Positions 52,664 to 62,048 of a stretch of DNA of 64,000 bases are shown here, piece by piece (the first letter of the stretch is position 1; every line of letters begins with the position of its first letter). The stretch is taken from the NCBI GenBank assembly GCA_902500775.1, contig CABVRZ010000001.1, forward strand, positions 1 through 64,000. Direction: 5' to 3'. The notes under the pieces were generated by a model. That model had not been told where the DNA came from. It made no database searches and worked only from the letters and a program-made list of their open reading frames with translations. The stretch comes from an uncultured Nitrospira sp. Lineage in GTDB: Bacteria > Nitrospirota > Nitrospiria > Nitrospirales > Nitrospiraceae. A program made the translations under genes and the position numbers.

Positions 52664-53812
52664 ATGCGAGACAATTTTCTCTTTACCTCTGAGTCGGTGA
52701 CTGAAGGGCATCCCGATAAAATCGCCGACCAAATCTCAGACGGCATCTTAGATGCCATTATCGCACAGGATAAATATTCTCGTGTCGCCTGCGAGACGAT
52801 CCTCACCACCGGGATCGCCCTGGTAGCGGGCGAAATCTCGACCAAGGCCTATGTTGAAATCCCGGACATTATCCGGGAAGTCATCAAAGAGGTCGGGTAT
52901 TGCGATGCGTCGTGGGGGTTCGACTATCATACCTGCTCGGTTCTCACCGCCATTCACCAACAATCCGGCGATATTTCCATGGGAGTAGACTCCGGCGGAG
53001 CCGGCGATCAGGGCTTGATGTTCGGCTATGCCACCAATGAAACGAATGAGCTCATGCCGATGCCCATCGTCTTGGCTCACCGGTTGACCAAGCGTCTCGC
53101 CGAAGTGCGCAAAAAGAACATTCTCAAGTGGGTAAGACCAGACGGCAAATCTCAGGTCACCGTCGAATATAAGAAGGGCAAACCCGTTCGGATCGATACA
53201 ATCGTCGTCTCCACACAACACAGCCCCGATGTGACCAATAAGCAAATCGAACGGGATATCATGGAAAAGGTGATCAAGCCGGTCATGCCGAAGGGCCTGT
53301 ATGACCCGACCGGTGTGAAGCATCACATCAACCCGACTGGTCGATTCGTGGTCGGCGGCCCCATGGGCGACACCGGTCTCACCGGGCGTAAGATCATCGT
53401 GGACACCTATGGCGGCCATGGCAGCCATGGCGGTGGAGCCTTCTCCGGAAAAGATCCAACAAAGGTCGATCGATCTGCTTCCTACATGGCACGCTATATC
53501 GCAAAGAACCTGGTCGCTGCTGGATTGGCCGAAAAATGTGAGGTGCAGTTGGCCTATGCCATCGGCGTCGCCGATCCCGTTTCCGTGCTGGTCGATACCA
53601 AAGGCACGGAAAAGGTATCCGTTGATCAGCTCGACAAACTCGTGCGCAAACACTTCCCCATGACGCCACGTGGCATCATTGATCATCTCAAGCTTCGCCG
53701 GCCAATTTTCAAAAAGACGGCGGCCTATGGGCACTTCGGCCGCAACGAGCCTGAGTTTACCTGGGAGAAAACCGACAAGGCCAAGGCCCTGAGCAAGGAC
53801 GCCAGACTATAA
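52664..53812 (+). CDS. metK: S-adenosylmethionine synthase
   Basis: Makes SAM from methionine and ATP. 382 residues with the family landmarks [14 protein letters not shown] at the N-terminus, [13 protein letters not shown] in the centre, a Lys-containing [24 protein letters not shown] (landmark region only) and [18 protein letters not shown] near residue 250. Length is normal for bacterial MetK. GAGGGGCAT precedes the ATG. It is followed after 120 bases by ahcY; together they form and recycle the methyl donor needed by the radical SAM hopanoid enzyme and other methyltransferases. Confidence 0.98.
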
Positions 53813-53821
53813 GCTTCGTGA

Positions 53822-55192
<1,371 letters not shown>

Positions 55193-55398: not shown

Positions 55399-55424
55399 GG
55401 CCGCCTGAAGAAGGCGGCCTTTTT
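55399..55424 (+). terminator. Rho-independent terminator after ahcY
   Basis: GGCCGCC and GGCGGCC pair perfectly around a TGAAGAA loop and are followed by TTTTTATTT. The stem is preceded by AAA, so it could also act on the minus strand. Confidence 0.85.
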
Positions 55425-55534
55425 ATTTGTGAGTGAGCTTGCACATTCTCTCCCGCTGGGACCCTTTGGAGCTTGCTTGACAAGCCGATTGCAATCTCAT
55501 GAAGGAGTGGTAGAGTGAGGGCAAAGAGGGCTCT

Positions 55535-56737
55535 ATGAACTCCCACACCTTCCAGCCATTATCTCTCGCAGATTTTGGAATCTCTCCTGAGCGGGGGTTC
55601 CTCCCGTCGGATCCTTGCGAAACTCTTCCCGACTGTCCCACGCTGAATCATTTAAGTCTAGAGCTGCCCAAGTTATTGAGTGCGCGTCAGGTCCATCGAT
55701 TTATTGATGATCAATCGTCATTGCTCCCATCCATTCCATCGCGTTGGGCTGAGGATGAGTACCGAACTGCAATGCGGATCCTTTCATTTGCCGGTCACGC
55801 CTACGTGTGGGAAACGCCGGGCCAACCAGTCCTTACGCTCCCCTCACAACTTGCACGGCCCTGGTATGAGATAGGCCAAAAGCTCGGCCGTCCTCCGGTC
55901 CTGTCCTATGCCTCTTATGCGCTGGACAACTGGCGCCGCCTTGATAAAACAAAACCGGTTCAGCTCGACAACATTGTGCTGCTGCAAAATTTCCTCGGTG
56001 GGCTGGATGAAGAATGGTTCGTCGTGGTGCATCTGCAGATCGAGCATCAAGCGGGACCAGGCCTAGCTGGACTGGTACGGGCGATCAACGGAGCCGTGAA
56101 AAGAAACGGCGACGAGGTGCTCGTGGGTTTACGAACGCTGGCGTCGGCTCAAACCACCATGCGAAATACGCTTCTCCGTATGAAAGAGCGGTGCGATCCC
56201 TATATCTATTACACCCGCGTAAGGCCCTACATTCACGCCTGGAAGAACAACCCGTCGCTCCCCGATGGCCTTATCTATGATGGTGTCGAAGCCTACGCTG
56301 AAAGGCCACAACAGTTTCGTGGCGAGACCGGTGCGCAAAGTTCAATCGTGCCGTGCCTGGACGCGGGACTAGGCATTGATCATGCGCCCGATCCACTGAC
56401 GGTGTATCTGCAAGAAATGCGAGAATATATGCCACCCCGCCACCGAGCTTTTCTTCAGGCTCTGGAGAGTCAGACTGACGATAAGAGTCGCGCCCTCCTA
56501 TCCGGCTATGTTCGTGATCACAGGGGGAGTCATCCCGAACTCTGGTCCGCCTACTGTGCTTGCGTCGACCTGTTGGCCCAGTTCCGAGAAATCCACATCG
56601 GCTACGCCGACAGTTACATCAACCGCCAGCACCAGACCAGTTCGACCAACTCAACGGCAGTAGGCACCGGCGGTACACCCTTCATGACGTATCTGCAGAA
56701 GCACCTGGACGAAACGAAGCAGGCTATCACGGCATAG
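55535..56737 (+). CDS. Indoleamine 2,3-dioxygenase family protein
   Basis: A haem dioxygenase that opens the indole ring of tryptophan or a relative to N-formylkynurenine. 400 residues. Family landmarks: RILSFAGHAYVWETP and RPPVLSYASYALDNW in the N-terminal half, FRGETGAQSS (261-270), the proximal haem-ligand region FREIHIGYADSYI (His354) and GTGGTPFMTYL near the end. GAGGG lies just before the ATG. A predicted cyclase/formamidase-family gene lies two genes downstream, which would take N-formylkynurenine on, but that protein is exported while this one has no signal. Bacterial members may use other indoles; the substrate is not shown by sequence. Confidence 0.88.
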   Translation: MNSHTFQPLSLADFGISPERGFLPSDPCETLPDCPTLNHLSLELPKLLSARQVHRFIDDQSSLLPSIPSRWAEDEYRTAMRILSFAGHAYVWETPGQPVLTLPSQLARPWYEIGQKLGRPPVLSYASYALDNWRRLDKTKPVQLDNIVLLQNFLGGLDEEWFVVVHLQIEHQAGPGLAGLVRAINGAVKRNGDEVLVGLRTLASAQTTMRNTLLRMKERCDPYIYYTRVRPYIHAWKNNPSLPDGLIYDGVEAYAERPQQFRGETGAQSSIVPCLDAGLGIDHAPDPLTVYLQEMREYMPPRHRAFLQALESQTDDKSRALLSGYVRDHRGSHPELWSAYCACVDLLAQFREIHIGYADSYINRQHQTSSTNSTAVGTGGTPFMTYLQKHLDETKQAITA

Positions 56738-57023
56738 CCTACAGATTACTGAGACCCCACACTTCTCTTCCCGCGACATACCAATTACTCAAGCACTGCG
56801 CATGCGGATAAATCCCCATCCCAGAACACTTGTAGGCGGCCTATGGGACTCAGTGCATACATTGATGTATGATCAGTACTCCTAAGCCTTGGTCTGGGAT
56901 GGACAACCGCTTACTAGCTCCTGCAGCGTCACTGCACGATGTAGCCATGAAGCATCTCCAACTTATTAAAAAGTATTCGTCGAGTCACGCTAATCCTATC
57001 TGCACTTTCTCAGCTGTCTTACC

Positions 57024-58154
57024 GTGAAATTGGCTCAATTAACCAGCACAGCAAAAAACATCTTCATCAGCCATATTAATGAAGAGGCTTCGCTGGCAAT
57101 TGGCCTAAAACAGAACATAGAGAAATCGTTTGGGGACCGATGCACTGTATTTGTAAGCAGCCACCCCAAGGATCTTCCAGCTGGCACAAGATGGCTCGAA
57201 GAGATAAACCAGGCGTTGGAGAGCGCAAGCCTACTGATTATCCTGTGTAGCCCACACTCACTTGGTCGCCCATGGATCAACTTTGAGGCCGGGTGTTGCT
57301 GGAACCGAAACATACCTATCGTGCCGGTTTGCCACTCCGGCCAGCGACGGAACGAGCTTCCACCGCCACTCTCAACCTTCCAGTCGCTAGAGTTGCAAGA
57401 TGACAAGTTTTCAGAGCTTCTAATTCAAGCAATAGTTGCTCATCTTACTATTAGGCCTATTTCTGGATTGGACCTCCATGGAATCAATTATGAATTGCTG
57501 CAAACTGTTCCGACAGACAATGGCGACACTATTAGGCGACAATCACTCCGCTTGAAAGTAAGGGACGGGAGTCTTGAACTTGCTCGCGTTCTCGAACAGC
57601 AGGACAGAATGAAGCGGGCTAACCACATGGTCAAGCATATGCTGCCATCGCCTCTAAAGATCGAATTTGAAAATGACCATTCTGTCGAGTGGATTCCACG
57701 GCCTCACCCGGCTTTACCTGCTCAACATGTTCGCCATAAGGTCTATGGAGTCGTGATCTATAATTCAGCTGGCCATGATATAGACAACGTGACTGTTGAG
57801 CTGGAACGCGTTGAAGATCTAACGGACCAGCATTCGGCAGATAAACAACCACCTCCGTATATCGGCCACAAGTTGATTTTTCAGAGGAACGGGAAGAATA
57901 CAATGAAATTCTCCCCAGACTTGCGAGATCGCGTCAGGCTGATTTCCCATGGTACTGGCATCATGATGCGTCACTCATTTCAAATTGAAGGCAACGACAA
58001 TTATTCCATCGATGCGGAGCATCAACATCGAATCTTCCTCAAGGTCACTGGTGATGGCGTGAAGCCATCCAAAGCCTCTTTCATCGTGCAGCTGGGCAGA
58101 CAGGGAATATTCCACATGACGAGAGAGAACAAGACCCCTTCACCGCAGACCTGA
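57024..58154 (+). CDS. TIR-domain protein with unknown C-terminal domain
   Basis: A 376-residue protein. Residues 10-145 form a TIR fold: first strand NIFISHI, the BB-loop region SSHPKDLPAGTRW, LLIILCSPHSL, and the W84-x3-E88 motif (WINFEAG), where Glu is the catalytic residue of TIR NADases. The C-terminal part (about 160-370) has a helical stretch and then a beta-rich domain (VYGVVIYNSAGHDI, MKFSPDLRDRV, RIFLKVTG) that I cannot place. TIR proteins in bacteria often deplete NAD or make nucleotide signals in phage defence, but a usual partner gene (Thoeris ThsA, SAVED, pAgo) is not seen next to it. The GTG start lacks a ribosome binding site. Confidence 0.85.
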   Translation: MKLAQLTSTAKNIFISHINEEASLAIGLKQNIEKSFGDRCTVFVSSHPKDLPAGTRWLEEINQALESASLLIILCSPHSLGRPWINFEAGCCWNRNIPIVPVCHSGQRRNELPPPLSTFQSLELQDDKFSELLIQAIVAHLTIRPISGLDLHGINYELLQTVPTDNGDTIRRQSLRLKVRDGSLELARVLEQQDRMKRANHMVKHMLPSPLKIEFENDHSVEWIPRPHPALPAQHVRHKVYGVVIYNSAGHDIDNVTVELERVEDLTDQHSADKQPPPYIGHKLIFQRNGKNTMKFSPDLRDRVRLISHGTGIMMRHSFQIEGNDNYSIDAEHQHRIFLKVTGDGVKPSKASFIVQLGRQGIFHMTRENKTPSPQT

Positions 58155-58594
58155 AGAATGTGGAGAGACGAAGACCCAGAGGTCCAGACTAAATTCCGCA
58201 AGACATGCAACGTGCAGTTCCAGCGAGATGCCGCAGGTCCCACTCAGGACTTCACTGAACGGGAGTTGTTCAGTTCGTAACAGAAATCGGAGAGGTGCAA
58301 TGCAATGGTGAGCCGTTCTTCCGGGCTCTGACGCCTCGCCCGCTCAATCTTCTCGTCAGCAAGCCGCTGACTCAGCTTGCTTGGTCGCCGTCCAGTTGCT
58401 TGAGAAGCAGCCGGTTGCTGAGGCTTCATACTACACAAGTATACATGCGTCCTCAGAAACCTGAAAGAATGAAGAGGCAACTGCTACAGTCTCCCGATCA
58501 GGACACTCTAAGGGCCGATGTTTGGCCGTGGTTCAGAATCCTCTCCCATGCCATCAACCAGATTAAATATCCAAGTGTAGTTCGGTCCTGAATG
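58155..58594. other. Intergenic stretch after the TIR gene
   Basis: About 440 bases between the convergent TIR and cyclase-family genes. The only possible gene is a small minus-strand frame at 58244-58429, listed separately. I see no terminator with a T run. Confidence 0.5.
58244..58429 (-). CDS. Possible small charged protein
   Basis: A 61-residue frame from ATG 58429 (MKPQQPAAS): Pro/Ala-rich start, then a basic helix (RLADEKIERARRQSPEERL) and TIALHLSDFCYELN. The helical end with SPEERL and LSDFC has the look of a small conserved protein, but I know no family. No ribosome binding site is visible. It lies convergent to the TIR gene and could be antitoxin-like or simply spurious. Confidence 0.4.
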   Translation of the reverse strand: MKPQQPAASQATGRRPSKLSQRLADEKIERARRQSPEERLTIALHLSDFCYELNNSRSVKS

Positions 58595-59425
58595 CTAGCG
58601 GGAGGTCGGTGGCACAGCAATGATCCGTAGCGGCCCGCCTGTACCGCCGGCAATTTTCATAGGCAGCGCGATGACGTCGAAACCGCGATCCGGAAGATCA
58701 TTCAGATTGGCAAGATTCTCGAACACCGACACGTTGTGAGAAAGAAGTGCAACATGGGTTTCGAATTTCGTCGACTGGCCATAGTCGATCGAGGCGGTAT
58801 CAATCCCCACTGCCTTCACGTGCCGTTCACGCACCAGCCATGCAGCCGCCTCCGGATGCAGTCCAGGAAAATGTAATGCCCGCGCTCCCTCCTGCCCTCT
58901 CAGTTCCGTACCCAGATAGTCCTTCCGACTCGGCCAGAACTTGGCGTAGCCTGTATTCAACAATACGATCGAGTCGTTCGGAATCCGGCCATGCTCAATC
59001 TCCCAGCGTGTAATGTCTGAGATAGCCACAAGGTAATCTCGATTATGAGCACATTGCACAGCAACATTGATTTGCACACCCGTCCCCACCAATTTCTCCA
59101 GAGGAATCTGATCCACCGTCTGCTTCCCTTTTGAAAAGTGGATCGGTGCATCGATGTGGGTGCCTCCATGCTCAGGCAACTCCATACGATTTGACGCGTA
59201 GTAGTACTCACCAGCTGTATGCTCTGCATGCTGAACGATGAGCTTAAACTCGTTTTCCGTCGGCCAGACGATCGTATCCGCCCCGAATGAATGCGTCAGA
59301 TCGACAATCCTCGATTGTTCCCAGGTGAACTGACCATGCTGAGGACTAGCGACACATCCAATGCCTGAGATGAAGCACAGCGCTGCGATTACCATACTCG
59401 CCAGGTGCGTGAGTCTTCTCAACAT
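58595..59425 (-). CDS. Exported cyclase/kynurenine formamidase-family protein
   Basis: A 276-residue member of the Cyclase (PF04199) family, which includes kynurenine formamidase. The metal-binding motif H86-G-G-T-H90-I-D92 is present, with RIVDLTHSFG near the start of the domain, and later GIDTASIDYGQS. It has an N-terminal signal peptide and a possible lipobox (SGIGC, Cys24), so it should be periplasmic. Cytoplasmic formamidases lack this. The nearby dioxygenase suggests tryptophan catabolism, but the export signal raises doubt, and another cyclic amide or ester may be the substrate. It is convergent with the TIR gene. Confidence 0.8.
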   Translation of the reverse strand: MLRRLTHLASMVIAALCFISGIGCVASPQHGQFTWEQSRIVDLTHSFGADTIVWPTENEFKLIVQHAEHTAGEYYYASNRMELPEHGGTHIDAPIHFSKGKQTVDQIPLEKLVGTGVQINVAVQCAHNRDYLVAISDITRWEIEHGRIPNDSIVLLNTGYAKFWPSRKDYLGTELRGQEGARALHFPGLHPEAAAWLVRERHVKAVGIDTASIDYGQSTKFETHVALLSHNVSVFENLANLNDLPDRGFDVIALPMKIAGGTGGPLRIIAVPPTSR

Positions 59426-59665: not shown

Positions 59666-59989
59666 TTACTTTCCAAATGCTTTTTTCAGCAGCGGCTCGA
59701 TCTCTCCCTTGGCAGCCATTGGATCCAAGATATCGGTATCCCCATAAAAGCTGCCATCGATGAACACCTTCGGGAGCGTCGGCCAGTTGGTCATCTTCGT
59801 CAGCGCTTCGCGTTTTGCCGGCTGCGACAGGACATCAATGAGTTCGTACGGGTACCCATACTTGTCAAAAAACTGCATGGTCTCTCTGGTAAACCCGCAC
59901 ATCGGCATGGCTTTGGTTCCCTTGCCGTAAATCAAAATTTTATGAGCCTTCACTTCCTTCTGAATTTCTTCGTCTATCTGGTCGGCCAT
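59666..59989 (-). CDS. grxD: Monothiol glutaredoxin, Grx4/GrxD type
   Basis: A 107-residue CGFS-class glutaredoxin that binds or transfers [2Fe-2S] clusters. The active site is KGTKAMPMCGFTRETM with Cys in CGFT instead of CGFS, and the family pattern YGYPYELIDVL, NWPTLPKVFIDG and GDTDIL is present. ATG 59989 has AGGAGG five bases upstream, and that site overlaps the bolA stop region (gap nine bases). GrxD and BolA proteins form cluster-binding heterodimers, so their adjacency is meaningful. A gap of about 240 bases without a gene separates it from the cyclase gene. Confidence 0.93.
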   Translation of the reverse strand: MADQIDEEIQKEVKAHKILIYGKGTKAMPMCGFTRETMQFFDKYGYPYELIDVLSQPAKREALTKMTNWPTLPKVFIDGSFYGDTDILDPMAAKGEIEPLLKKAFGK

Positions 59990-59998
59990 CATCTCCTC

Positions 59999-60238
59999 CT
60001 ACGCTTCGTCGTTCGTTCGTGCCGTCAGTTCCAAGGCGTGGATCCGCCCATCCTTCATCGGCGCATCTAACGCTTGATAGATCATGCGATGCCGATCCAG
60101 GAGGTTCTTCCCCTGAAACCCATCCGAAACAATCACCACTTTGAGGTGGTTCATCGTTCCCGTACGATCTGTCACCGTCACCACCGCATCGGGCAAGGAC
60201 CTGCGAATATAGTCGGTCAGCACATCTGGGGTAATCAC
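59999..60238 (-). CDS. bolA: BolA-family protein
   Basis: A 79-residue BolA/IbaG-type protein. It has the VTVTDRTGTMNHLKVVIVSDGFQGK region (landmark), the conserved His in RHRMIYQAL and the C-terminal RIHALELTART. BolA proteins bind [2Fe-2S] clusters with monothiol glutaredoxins. I chose GTG 60238 (GGAGG four bases upstream); the longer frame to 60322 adds residues that do not fit the family. It is transcribed with grxD, divergent from the response-regulator operon. Confidence 0.9.
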   Translation of the reverse strand: MITPDVLTDYIRRSLPDAVVTVTDRTGTMNHLKVVIVSDGFQGKNLLDRHRMIYQALDAPMKDGRIHALELTARTNDEA

Positions 60239-60486
60239 TGGCCTCCACTCCTCTGTTTTCACTACCCTAGCCCAAATCAACGGCGAAAGGCAACGTGCCC
60301 TTCGCCTGGTGGTTTTCAACATGTTGGTGGTGCATATCAGCCAACTGTCTGCAGGGCCTCGTTATCCCAAACACTGAAAGCATTGAAAAGATGCGCCTTC
60401 GTAATTCTCACAGTTCGGCACCGACCTTGCGACATCTCAGATGTATAGACGGAAACCAATCGCCGCTGTTCACCAAGGAGGTTGTC

Positions 60487-60921
60487 ATGAGCGAATTTAA
60501 GTCTGGATTCTTCGTTGGAGGTGAGAGCTGCAATGGGCGAGTACTGGTTGTCGATGACGAGCCCGACATTCGTAAGGTCGTCCGTATGACGCTCCAAAAA
60601 GGCGGGTATGATGTCCTCGAAGCAGAAAACGGAGAAAAGGCCATTGAGGTGATCAACTCCGGCGAAAATCGGCTGCTCCTCGATGTCATCATCTGCGACA
60701 TCCGGATGCCCAAAGTCAACGGGATCGAAGCGATTGCCTACTTCCGTCAGAACTATCCTCGCGTCCCACTGATTGTTCTGACTGGATTTCCGGACACCGA
60801 CATGGCCACCTCATTACTCCGTCAGGGCGTGGTGGACTATTTGGTGAAGCCAGTCGAGGGTGAGAAGCTGAAGGCCTCCGTTGCACGAGCCATGGAGCAA
60901 CGTGAACTGGCCCATCTCTGA
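60487..60921 (+). CDS. Stand-alone response-regulator receiver protein
   Basis: A 144-residue CheY-like protein: a short N-terminal tail (about 15 residues) and a receiver domain with VLVVDDEPDIRKVV, phosphorylated Asp in IICDIRMPKVNG, and Lys in DYLVKPVEG. No output domain. AGGAGG lies five bases before the ATG. It opens a signalling operon with two histidine kinases downstream, so it may be the phosphate acceptor for one or both, or an NtrC/PilG-type intermediate. The DNA-binding output must lie elsewhere. Confidence 0.92.
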   Translation: MSEFKSGFFVGGESCNGRVLVVDDEPDIRKVVRMTLQKGGYDVLEAENGEKAIEVINSGENRLLLDVIICDIRMPKVNGIEAIAYFRQNYPRVPLIVLTGFPDTDMATSLLRQGVVDYLVKPVEGEKLKASVARAMEQRELAHL

Positions 60922-60950
60922 TCAGCCGAGTCACAGCTGGAGAATCACAT

Positions 60951-62048
60951 ATGGCGATCTTTTCACCGACCATTTCCCACCGACGAACCGAGCCTCAAGC
61001 GGCTACGCCGCCTCCGATGAGAGTCGCCATCATCGGAGCGGGCCGCGGAGGAACGGCCCTCCTTGATGTGCTTCATCAAATCGGCACAATTGAAGTCGTC
61101 GGGGTCATCGACAAAAATCCAACGGCACCAGGACTCAGGCGAGCCCAAGAACTCAACGTGGCCGTCTATGACCAGGTACCGGACCTGATCAAGGACCAAC
61201 ACCCTAGCCTTGTGATGGATGTGACTGGTGATCCCGCAATGGAGTCATCTCTCCAGGAACAGGTGCCTCCCGGAACCGGCATCGTTAATGGGCAGACATC
61301 TCGGTTACTGTGGCTACTGGTGCAACACGAAACCACGTTGCAGACGGAGTTGCTTCATGCGGAGAAACTTGCAGGAATCGGCTCGTTTGCCGCCGGCATC
61401 GCCCACGACATCAATAATCCTCTTCAGCTCATTCTAGGCTTGGCCGAGAATCTCACCGACGAAACAGACCTGGAGGCCGTCCACGCTCAAGCCGAAGATA
61501 TTATTGACGCCGTGAAGCGAACGACGGCGATTTGTCGGGACCTGACGTCCTACTCTCGCCGTACATCCCTTCGACCAGATGGACTCATCAGTGTAAACGG
61601 TAAGCTCGATGAGGCTCTGAAGATTGCCCGCTACGCCGTCGCCCTCCAAGACATCGAGATTCGCAAAGACTACCAACCGGACGTGGTCGCAAAGGGAAAC
61701 CCTGATCAGCTCCTCCACGTGTTCGTCAACCTCATTACCAATGCGGTTCAAGCCATGGAACACCAAGGGATCTTGACTCTGGAAACCGCTACGGTAGACG
61801 GAGGAACGCAGGTCCGTGTGTCGGACACCGGCAGCGGAATTGCGCCGGAATTGCTGAACCGTATTTTTGACCCGTTCTTCACCACCAAACCGCCGGGTAA
61901 GGGAACCGGTTTGGGTCTCTACAACATCAAAAATGTCATCCACCATATGCATGGGAGCATCAGCGTGGAAAGTCAGGTGGGGCGTGGGTCAACATTCACG
62001 CTTACATTCCCAGGAGAAACCGGCCAGGCCGAGGGGGAAGCATCATGA
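60951..62048 (+). CDS. Histidine kinase with N-terminal Rossmann NAD(P)-binding-like domain
   Basis: A 365-residue soluble kinase, no TM helix. Residues 24-125 look like an NAD(P)-binding Rossmann domain: [10 protein letters not shown] (GxGxxG), the acidic end VVGVIDKNP, and [11 protein letters not shown] short linker leads to HisKA with the H box [12 protein letters not shown] (His152) and a HATPase domain ([30 protein letters not shown]). I infer that the Rossmann domain senses a pyridine nucleotide or other ligand and controls the kinase. It lies 29 bases after the receiver gene and overlaps the next kinase start as ATGA. GGAG lies eight bases before the ATG. Confidence 0.88.

Follow-up and report, generated by a model that had tools for sequence, protein, structure and literature searches.

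An indoleamine dioxygenase–cyclase-family hydrolase gene pair and a TIR-domain gene at a variable site in Nitrospira

The window analyzed here is a stretch of 64,000 nucleotides from an uncultured Nitrospira sp. (contig CABVRZ010000001.1, assembly GCA_902500775.1), and its positions 55,535 to 59,425 carry genes for an indoleamine 2,3-dioxygenase (IDO), a TIR-domain protein and a cyclase-family hydrolase. An earlier note on this DNA had identified the same three open reading frames (ORFs). It proposed that IDO and the cyclase could form a tryptophan-to-kynurenine route that also leads to NAD, so that synthesis and destruction of NAD would meet in one locus. Comparison with related genomes points elsewhere: the locus quite probably holds two unrelated things side by side, a recurrent IDO–hydrolase pair and a TIR gene that is a passenger in a small hotspot for defence genes.

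The IDO gene (55535..56737, + strand) matches PF01231 over its full length (profile positions 2–412; 290.8 bits against a cut-off of 26), and the solved structures nearest to it are those of mammalian IDO2 and IDO1 (E 2.7e-57). The heme-ligand histidine is H354 in the motif FREIH and is kept in all 32 aligned homologues. IDO is a cytoplasmic protein, and no evident export signal was found in its sequence. The cyclase-family metal hydrolase (PF04199, 143 bits; 58595..59425) is encoded on the − strand and carries an N-terminal export signal, both as previously noted. The signal ends in Gly-Cys and, because this cysteine (Cys24 of the lipobox) is kept in 39 of 39 homologues, the protein is probably a lipid-anchored lipoprotein of the envelope; at lipobox position −3 the window protein has Gly, where the usual residue is Leu.

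The predicted metal ligands of the cyclase, H86, H90, D92, H96, H224 and E236, are conserved together with W54 in at least 97% of the 39 homologues, and the motif HxGTHxDxPxH spans H86–H96. Bacillus anthracis KynB uses H50, H54, D56, H60, H161, E173 and Trp20 (PMC4243253); the agreement of the cyclase ligands with residues 50, 54, 56 and 60 of this enzyme holds at the level of alignment ranges, not residue by residue. The cyclase and KynB (TIGR03035, EC 3.5.1.9) have in common this motif, a further His, the Glu of the second metal site and an aromatic Trp in the N-terminal region. They differ in the lipoprotein signal of the window protein and in its score of 83.2 bits with the NCBIfam equivalog model TIGR03035 (arylformamidase/KynB), for which the cut-off is 223.05. 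Overall, the cyclase is closer to isatin hydrolases, which belong to the same fold family, and to 8f9x; its best PDB sequence matches are 8f9x, followed by isatin hydrolases. In isatin hydrolases, however, the place of the KynB Glu is taken by Gln or Ala in the GLQC/GLAS signature (PMC6117287), whereas the cyclase has VFEN at this place and so retains Glu.

The gene between them (57024..58154, + strand) encodes a protein of 376 aa with an N-terminal TIR domain (TIR_2 at residues 13–129; 48.5 bits, cut-off 28) and a C-terminal beta domain. The glutamate expected of an NADase, already pointed out in the earlier note, is Glu88 in PWINFEAG (codon at 57285..57287, + strand), which, judged from the offset between the ranges paired in the structural comparison, corresponds to E192 of SpbK within one residue. 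An AlphaFold model of the protein was built from 4 sequences, and the best structural alignments of its TIR part were with SPARTA TIR-APAZ (Z 11.2, 138 residues aligned, 3.7 Å) and SpbK (Z 11.0, 148 residues aligned, 3.6 Å), both of which are NADases (PMC11984713). SpbK, the TIR NADase of Bacillus subtilis that acts in abortive infection (PMC11984713), is likewise a single-gene combination of TIR with a second domain; its sensor is N-terminal and binds a phage portal protein, whereas the second domain of the window protein is C-terminal and all-beta. SPARTA shares the TIR fold but differs in its partner: the variable segment around the TIR gene has no Argonaute gene, and no relation to APAZ was detected for the C-terminal domain.

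Judged by these features, the TIR protein is most likely an abortive-infection NADase directed against phages. Its C-terminal beta domain would sense or bind a trigger, the TIR domains would then assemble, and Glu88 would support cleavage of NAD+. Alternatively, the protein could produce or receive a signal in a multi-gene system of the Thoeris or CBASS type instead of being a stand-alone effector. The best PDB sequence match of the protein, TIR-STING, is in line with such a role, as are weak matches to ThsB and ThcB4, but the latter remain under the family cut-offs (ThsB_TIR, 20.2 bits against 21.2; ThcB4, 21.4 of 220) and the variable segment contains neither ThsA nor a cGAS-like or other partner gene. 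We therefore rejected membership in Thoeris (ThsB) and regard a multi-gene system in general as quite improbable.

The segment in which the TIR gene lies (56740..58267) is sharply bounded. At the nucleotide level, homology of the window to 21–22 relatives breaks off at the IDO stop codon and restarts at 58268, and between these edges only genome G060 (Nitrospira sp. UBA2082) matches. Anchored on the flanking genes, the gene order in the genus is CcdA-TlpA-MetK-SAHH-IDO-[gap]-cyclase-glutaredoxin-BolA-response regulator-sensor kinase, where we take the ORF after the glutaredoxin gene to be BolA-like (our own label, given without a test against a family library). The gap between IDO and the cyclase ranges from −52 to 4431 bp with a median of 1459 bp, negative lengths arising from the extension of partial matches to full length. 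The neighbouring gaps differ little between genomes, at 32–61 bp (MetK-SAHH), 8–109 bp (glutaredoxin-BolA), 108–184 bp (BolA-response regulator) and 18–53 bp (response regulator-sensor kinase). The cargo found in relatives includes HEPN_AbiU2 with an AbiEii-like nucleotidyltransferase (MNT), DUF5677, patatin, Band 7, DUF429, FRG, a HaeII-like restriction-enzyme-like gene, DUF4344, and IS21 and DDE transposases. In G060 the cargo is a 305-aa domain fused to TIR together with a HepT/MntA-like pair, and the site is nearly empty in G083, G098 and G068.

Insertion hotspots for defence genes between conserved genes are known in other bacteria. The IDO–cyclase site resembles them in its fixed flanks and its exchangeable defence and toxin-antitoxin cargo, and differs in being very small (0–4.4 kb), in lying between convergent genes and in the absence of an integrase from the scanned cargo; transposases occurred at a few loci. 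The edges of the segment were also searched for short repeats as marks of an integration mechanism, with nothing convincing to show. The gap is best read as a compact hotspot at which defence or toxin-antitoxin genes insert singly.

The distribution of the TIR gene was surveyed in 175 genomes of the Nitrospira family, consisting of the window genome (G000) and 174 others. TIR matches occurred in 27 of the 175, mostly to the TIR domain alone, and a full-length relative was found in only one of the other genomes, G060, with 66–67% identity. This homologue (L161:4507-6558, + strand) has 683 aa, namely an extra N-terminal 305 aa followed by TIR and the C-terminal domain, and its motif reads PWINFES. 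The gene adjoins the cyclase gene, and G060 has no IDO. HepT- and MntA-like genes were also observed next to the TIR gene. Among 172 family genomes the 305-aa domain was found in G060 only, and a leftover of it upstream of the window TIR gene was searched for and not found. MetK and cyclase trees place the window and G060 far apart, with G076, which lacks the TIR gene, as the sister of G060 in both; these positions fit repeated gain of the TIR gene. A search of IMG/VR found no viral relatives of the TIR or C-terminal domain, the wider TIR alignment being too diverse to scan.

Several observations weigh against a TIR passenger in a defence hotspot. The identity between the window and G060 is similar for TIR (66–67%), the cyclase (68%) and a small ORF downstream of the cyclase (62%), so an old vertical presence of the TIR gene with many losses could also account for its distribution. 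Band 7 and DUF4344 are not known as defence genes, other cargo has no named domain, and the ORFs at the site were called mechanically. The model of the whole TIR protein is of modest confidence (predicted local distance difference test score (pLDDT) 63.8, predicted template modelling score 0.40). On the other side, the G+C content of the TIR gene is 0.48–0.50 against approximately 0.52–0.57 in the flanks.

The earlier note held that its proposal would fall if the three genes never occurred together in other genomes. Within the 175 genomes, the triad of IDO, TIR and cyclase was seen in the window genome only, while IDO and the cyclase do recur together. IDO is present in 118 of the genomes and the cyclase, when matches of any strength are counted, in 119, and the two genes are neighbours (less than 5 kb apart by their coordinates) in 40, with 30 convergent pairs, as in the window, and 10 divergent ones. 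Among the 79 genomes of the genus, 45 have both genes, 14 neither, 13 IDO only and 7 the cyclase only (Fisher p = 0.0004, kinship between the genomes ignored). IDO and the cyclase are best read as a recurrent, conserved Nitrospira pair.

With regard to its chemistry, IDO would turn tryptophan into N-formylkynurenine in the cytoplasm, and the envelope hydrolase would cleave N-formylkynurenine or another amide or lactone. The pair might form an envelope-associated tryptophan-to-kynurenine route that is independent of NAD and releases its product, which would serve in signalling, in redox chemistry or as a nitrogen source. The recurrent adjacency in two layouts, the genus counts and Glu236, which the cyclase shares with KynB and where isatin hydrolase A has Gln (PMC6117287), argue for such a route. 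The window genome also gave no match for tryptophan 2,3-dioxygenase (TDO), and the cyclase is the sole PF04199 gene found in it. On the other hand, since IDO is cytoplasmic and the cyclase lies in the envelope, a two-step route needs export of N-formylkynurenine. The arylformamidase score and the overall similarity to isatin hydrolases and 8f9x also speak against it, as do the many genomes that have IDO but no cyclase of at least 60% identity. We consider this route somewhat doubtful. A stronger contender, with a little less than an even chance, is that the adjacency reflects a shared gene frame only and that the cyclase, like isatin hydrolases, has a different cyclic amide or lactone as its substrate. 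Its top sequence matches suggest this, IDO follows sahH even in genomes where the cyclase is not a neighbour, and in G117 and G118 the two genes are approximately 95 kb apart. Against a mere shared frame, the cyclase can flank IDO on either side and does so away from metK-sahH too, and its VFEN departs from the isatin hydrolase signature. The parts of the earlier proposal that stood are the recurrent pair, the KynB-type ligands of the cyclase and the likeness of the TIR domain to NADase TIRs; those that did not are the meeting of NAD synthesis and destruction in one locus and the onward link of the pair to NAD.

That link would require kynureninase, for which no match was found in the window genome and none above the cut-off in 172 family genomes. 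Full-length kynureninase-like genes below the threshold (approximately 143–152 bits against 246) were observed in G131, G105, G108, G109, G107 and G073 (L132–L137). 3-Hydroxyanthranilate dioxygenase likewise gave no match in the window genome, although the control genomes gave none either. Because NadA is present and kynureninase was not detected, a tryptophan-to-NAD route in the window genome is unlikely, and the IDO–hydrolase chemistry would not feed NAD synthesis there. A unit for NAD homeostasis, with kynurenine from IDO and the cyclase feeding into NAD and the TIR protein breaking NAD down, can appeal to the physical closeness of the three genes, the KynB-type ligands and the catalytic Glu of the TIR domain. 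Apart from the presence of NadA and the failure to detect kynureninase, it is opposed by the hypervariable segment, which the TIR gene occupies only rarely, by the near absence of TIR next to IDO or the cyclase (G060, the close relative, has no IDO) and by the predicted export of the cyclase; we consider it hardly credible. Among the papers available, a literature search found none on IDO in Nitrospira and, for kynurenine and TIR defence together, general ones only.

The C-terminal beta-sandwich domain of the TIR protein (approximately residues 205–367; 57636..58124, + strand) has no Pfam name. It recurs in G106, G144, G117, G058 and G053 behind one or two membrane helices predicted from the protein sequences (L162:5542-6486, L163:5716-6486, L166:1489-2241, L167:1447-2250 and L168:1483-2328). 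Outside the family it was not found, either in a phylum sample of 395 genomes or when 84,980 genomes were scanned for two conserved peptides. Modelled alone by AlphaFold (pLDDT 76.6), it matched immunoglobulin-like beta sandwiches such as transglutaminase 3 and Kir7.1 with Z up to 7.2; we claim no family assignment, as an arrangement this common gives values in the same range. A more ambitious combined reading would be that Nitrospira form kynurenine in an NAD-independent step split between two compartments, with cytoplasmic IDO and an envelope lipoprotein formamidase releasing kynurenine or a related product to the outside, and that the TIR protein is one of a modular family not yet described, in which one beta-sandwich sensor is fused to TIR or transmembrane effectors. 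Taken together, these two statements are unlikely to hold.

Downstream of the cyclase gene on the same strand lies a conserved small ORF of 61 aa (58244..58429, − strand), which the earlier note did not mention; it also said nothing of the sharp edges of the TIR-bearing segment. The ORF is present in 32 of the 79 genus genomes, with 29 strong matches. Whenever the ORF and the cyclase gene lie on one contig they share a strand, and the distance between them is exactly 168 bp in five genomes, one of which is the window genome. An AbiEii-like nucleotidyltransferase gene often follows it in relatives. Its first 54 codons are conserved and its last codons in the window match only G060 and G076, so the edge of the variable segment falls inside it. 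A weak, sub-threshold match to the Rv0078B antitoxin (14 bits) suggests a possible antitoxin-type partner.

On the left, metK and sahH (52664..55192, + strand) are retained in most relatives of the genus (g1), and a terminator-like hairpin with a T run, identified by consensus match only, lies between sahH and IDO (55399..55427), so that co-transcription of IDO with metK-sahH is not required. On the right, the order of the glutaredoxin gene, the next ORF, the response regulator and the sensor kinase (59666..62048) is likewise retained. At some loci where the cyclase does not adjoin (L147, L149, L150, L153, L158 and L159), a VIT1-family gene (tested with Pfam in L147) often comes next after IDO, and then a gene that appears by eye to encode a radical-SAM protein. 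The SAHH-IDO gap is also variable in one clade, where it holds a gene for 271–283 aa with no Pfam match (L113, L114, L116, L117 and L118); in L123 of this clade such a gene is placed before the cyclase.

What is new about this locus, whose parts are of known kinds, lies in details: the specific insertion site, the 61-aa ORF and the C-terminal domain of the TIR protein. The identities of the genes, the conserved neighbourhood, the sharp edges and varied cargo of the segment and the conservation of ligands and lipobox are observed directly, and we infer the enzyme activities, the TIR trigger and the defence against phages. A striking three-gene story can arise when a cargo gene lands between two genes of metabolism. 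For Nitrospira, the recurring pair of IDO and a lipoprotein hydrolase without kynureninase raises the question of the fate of tryptophan, the TIR protein offers at its C-terminus a candidate sensor domain that has no name, and the site from the IDO stop codon to 58268 is a precise, testable hotspot for the discovery of defence genes in nitrite-oxidising bacteria.

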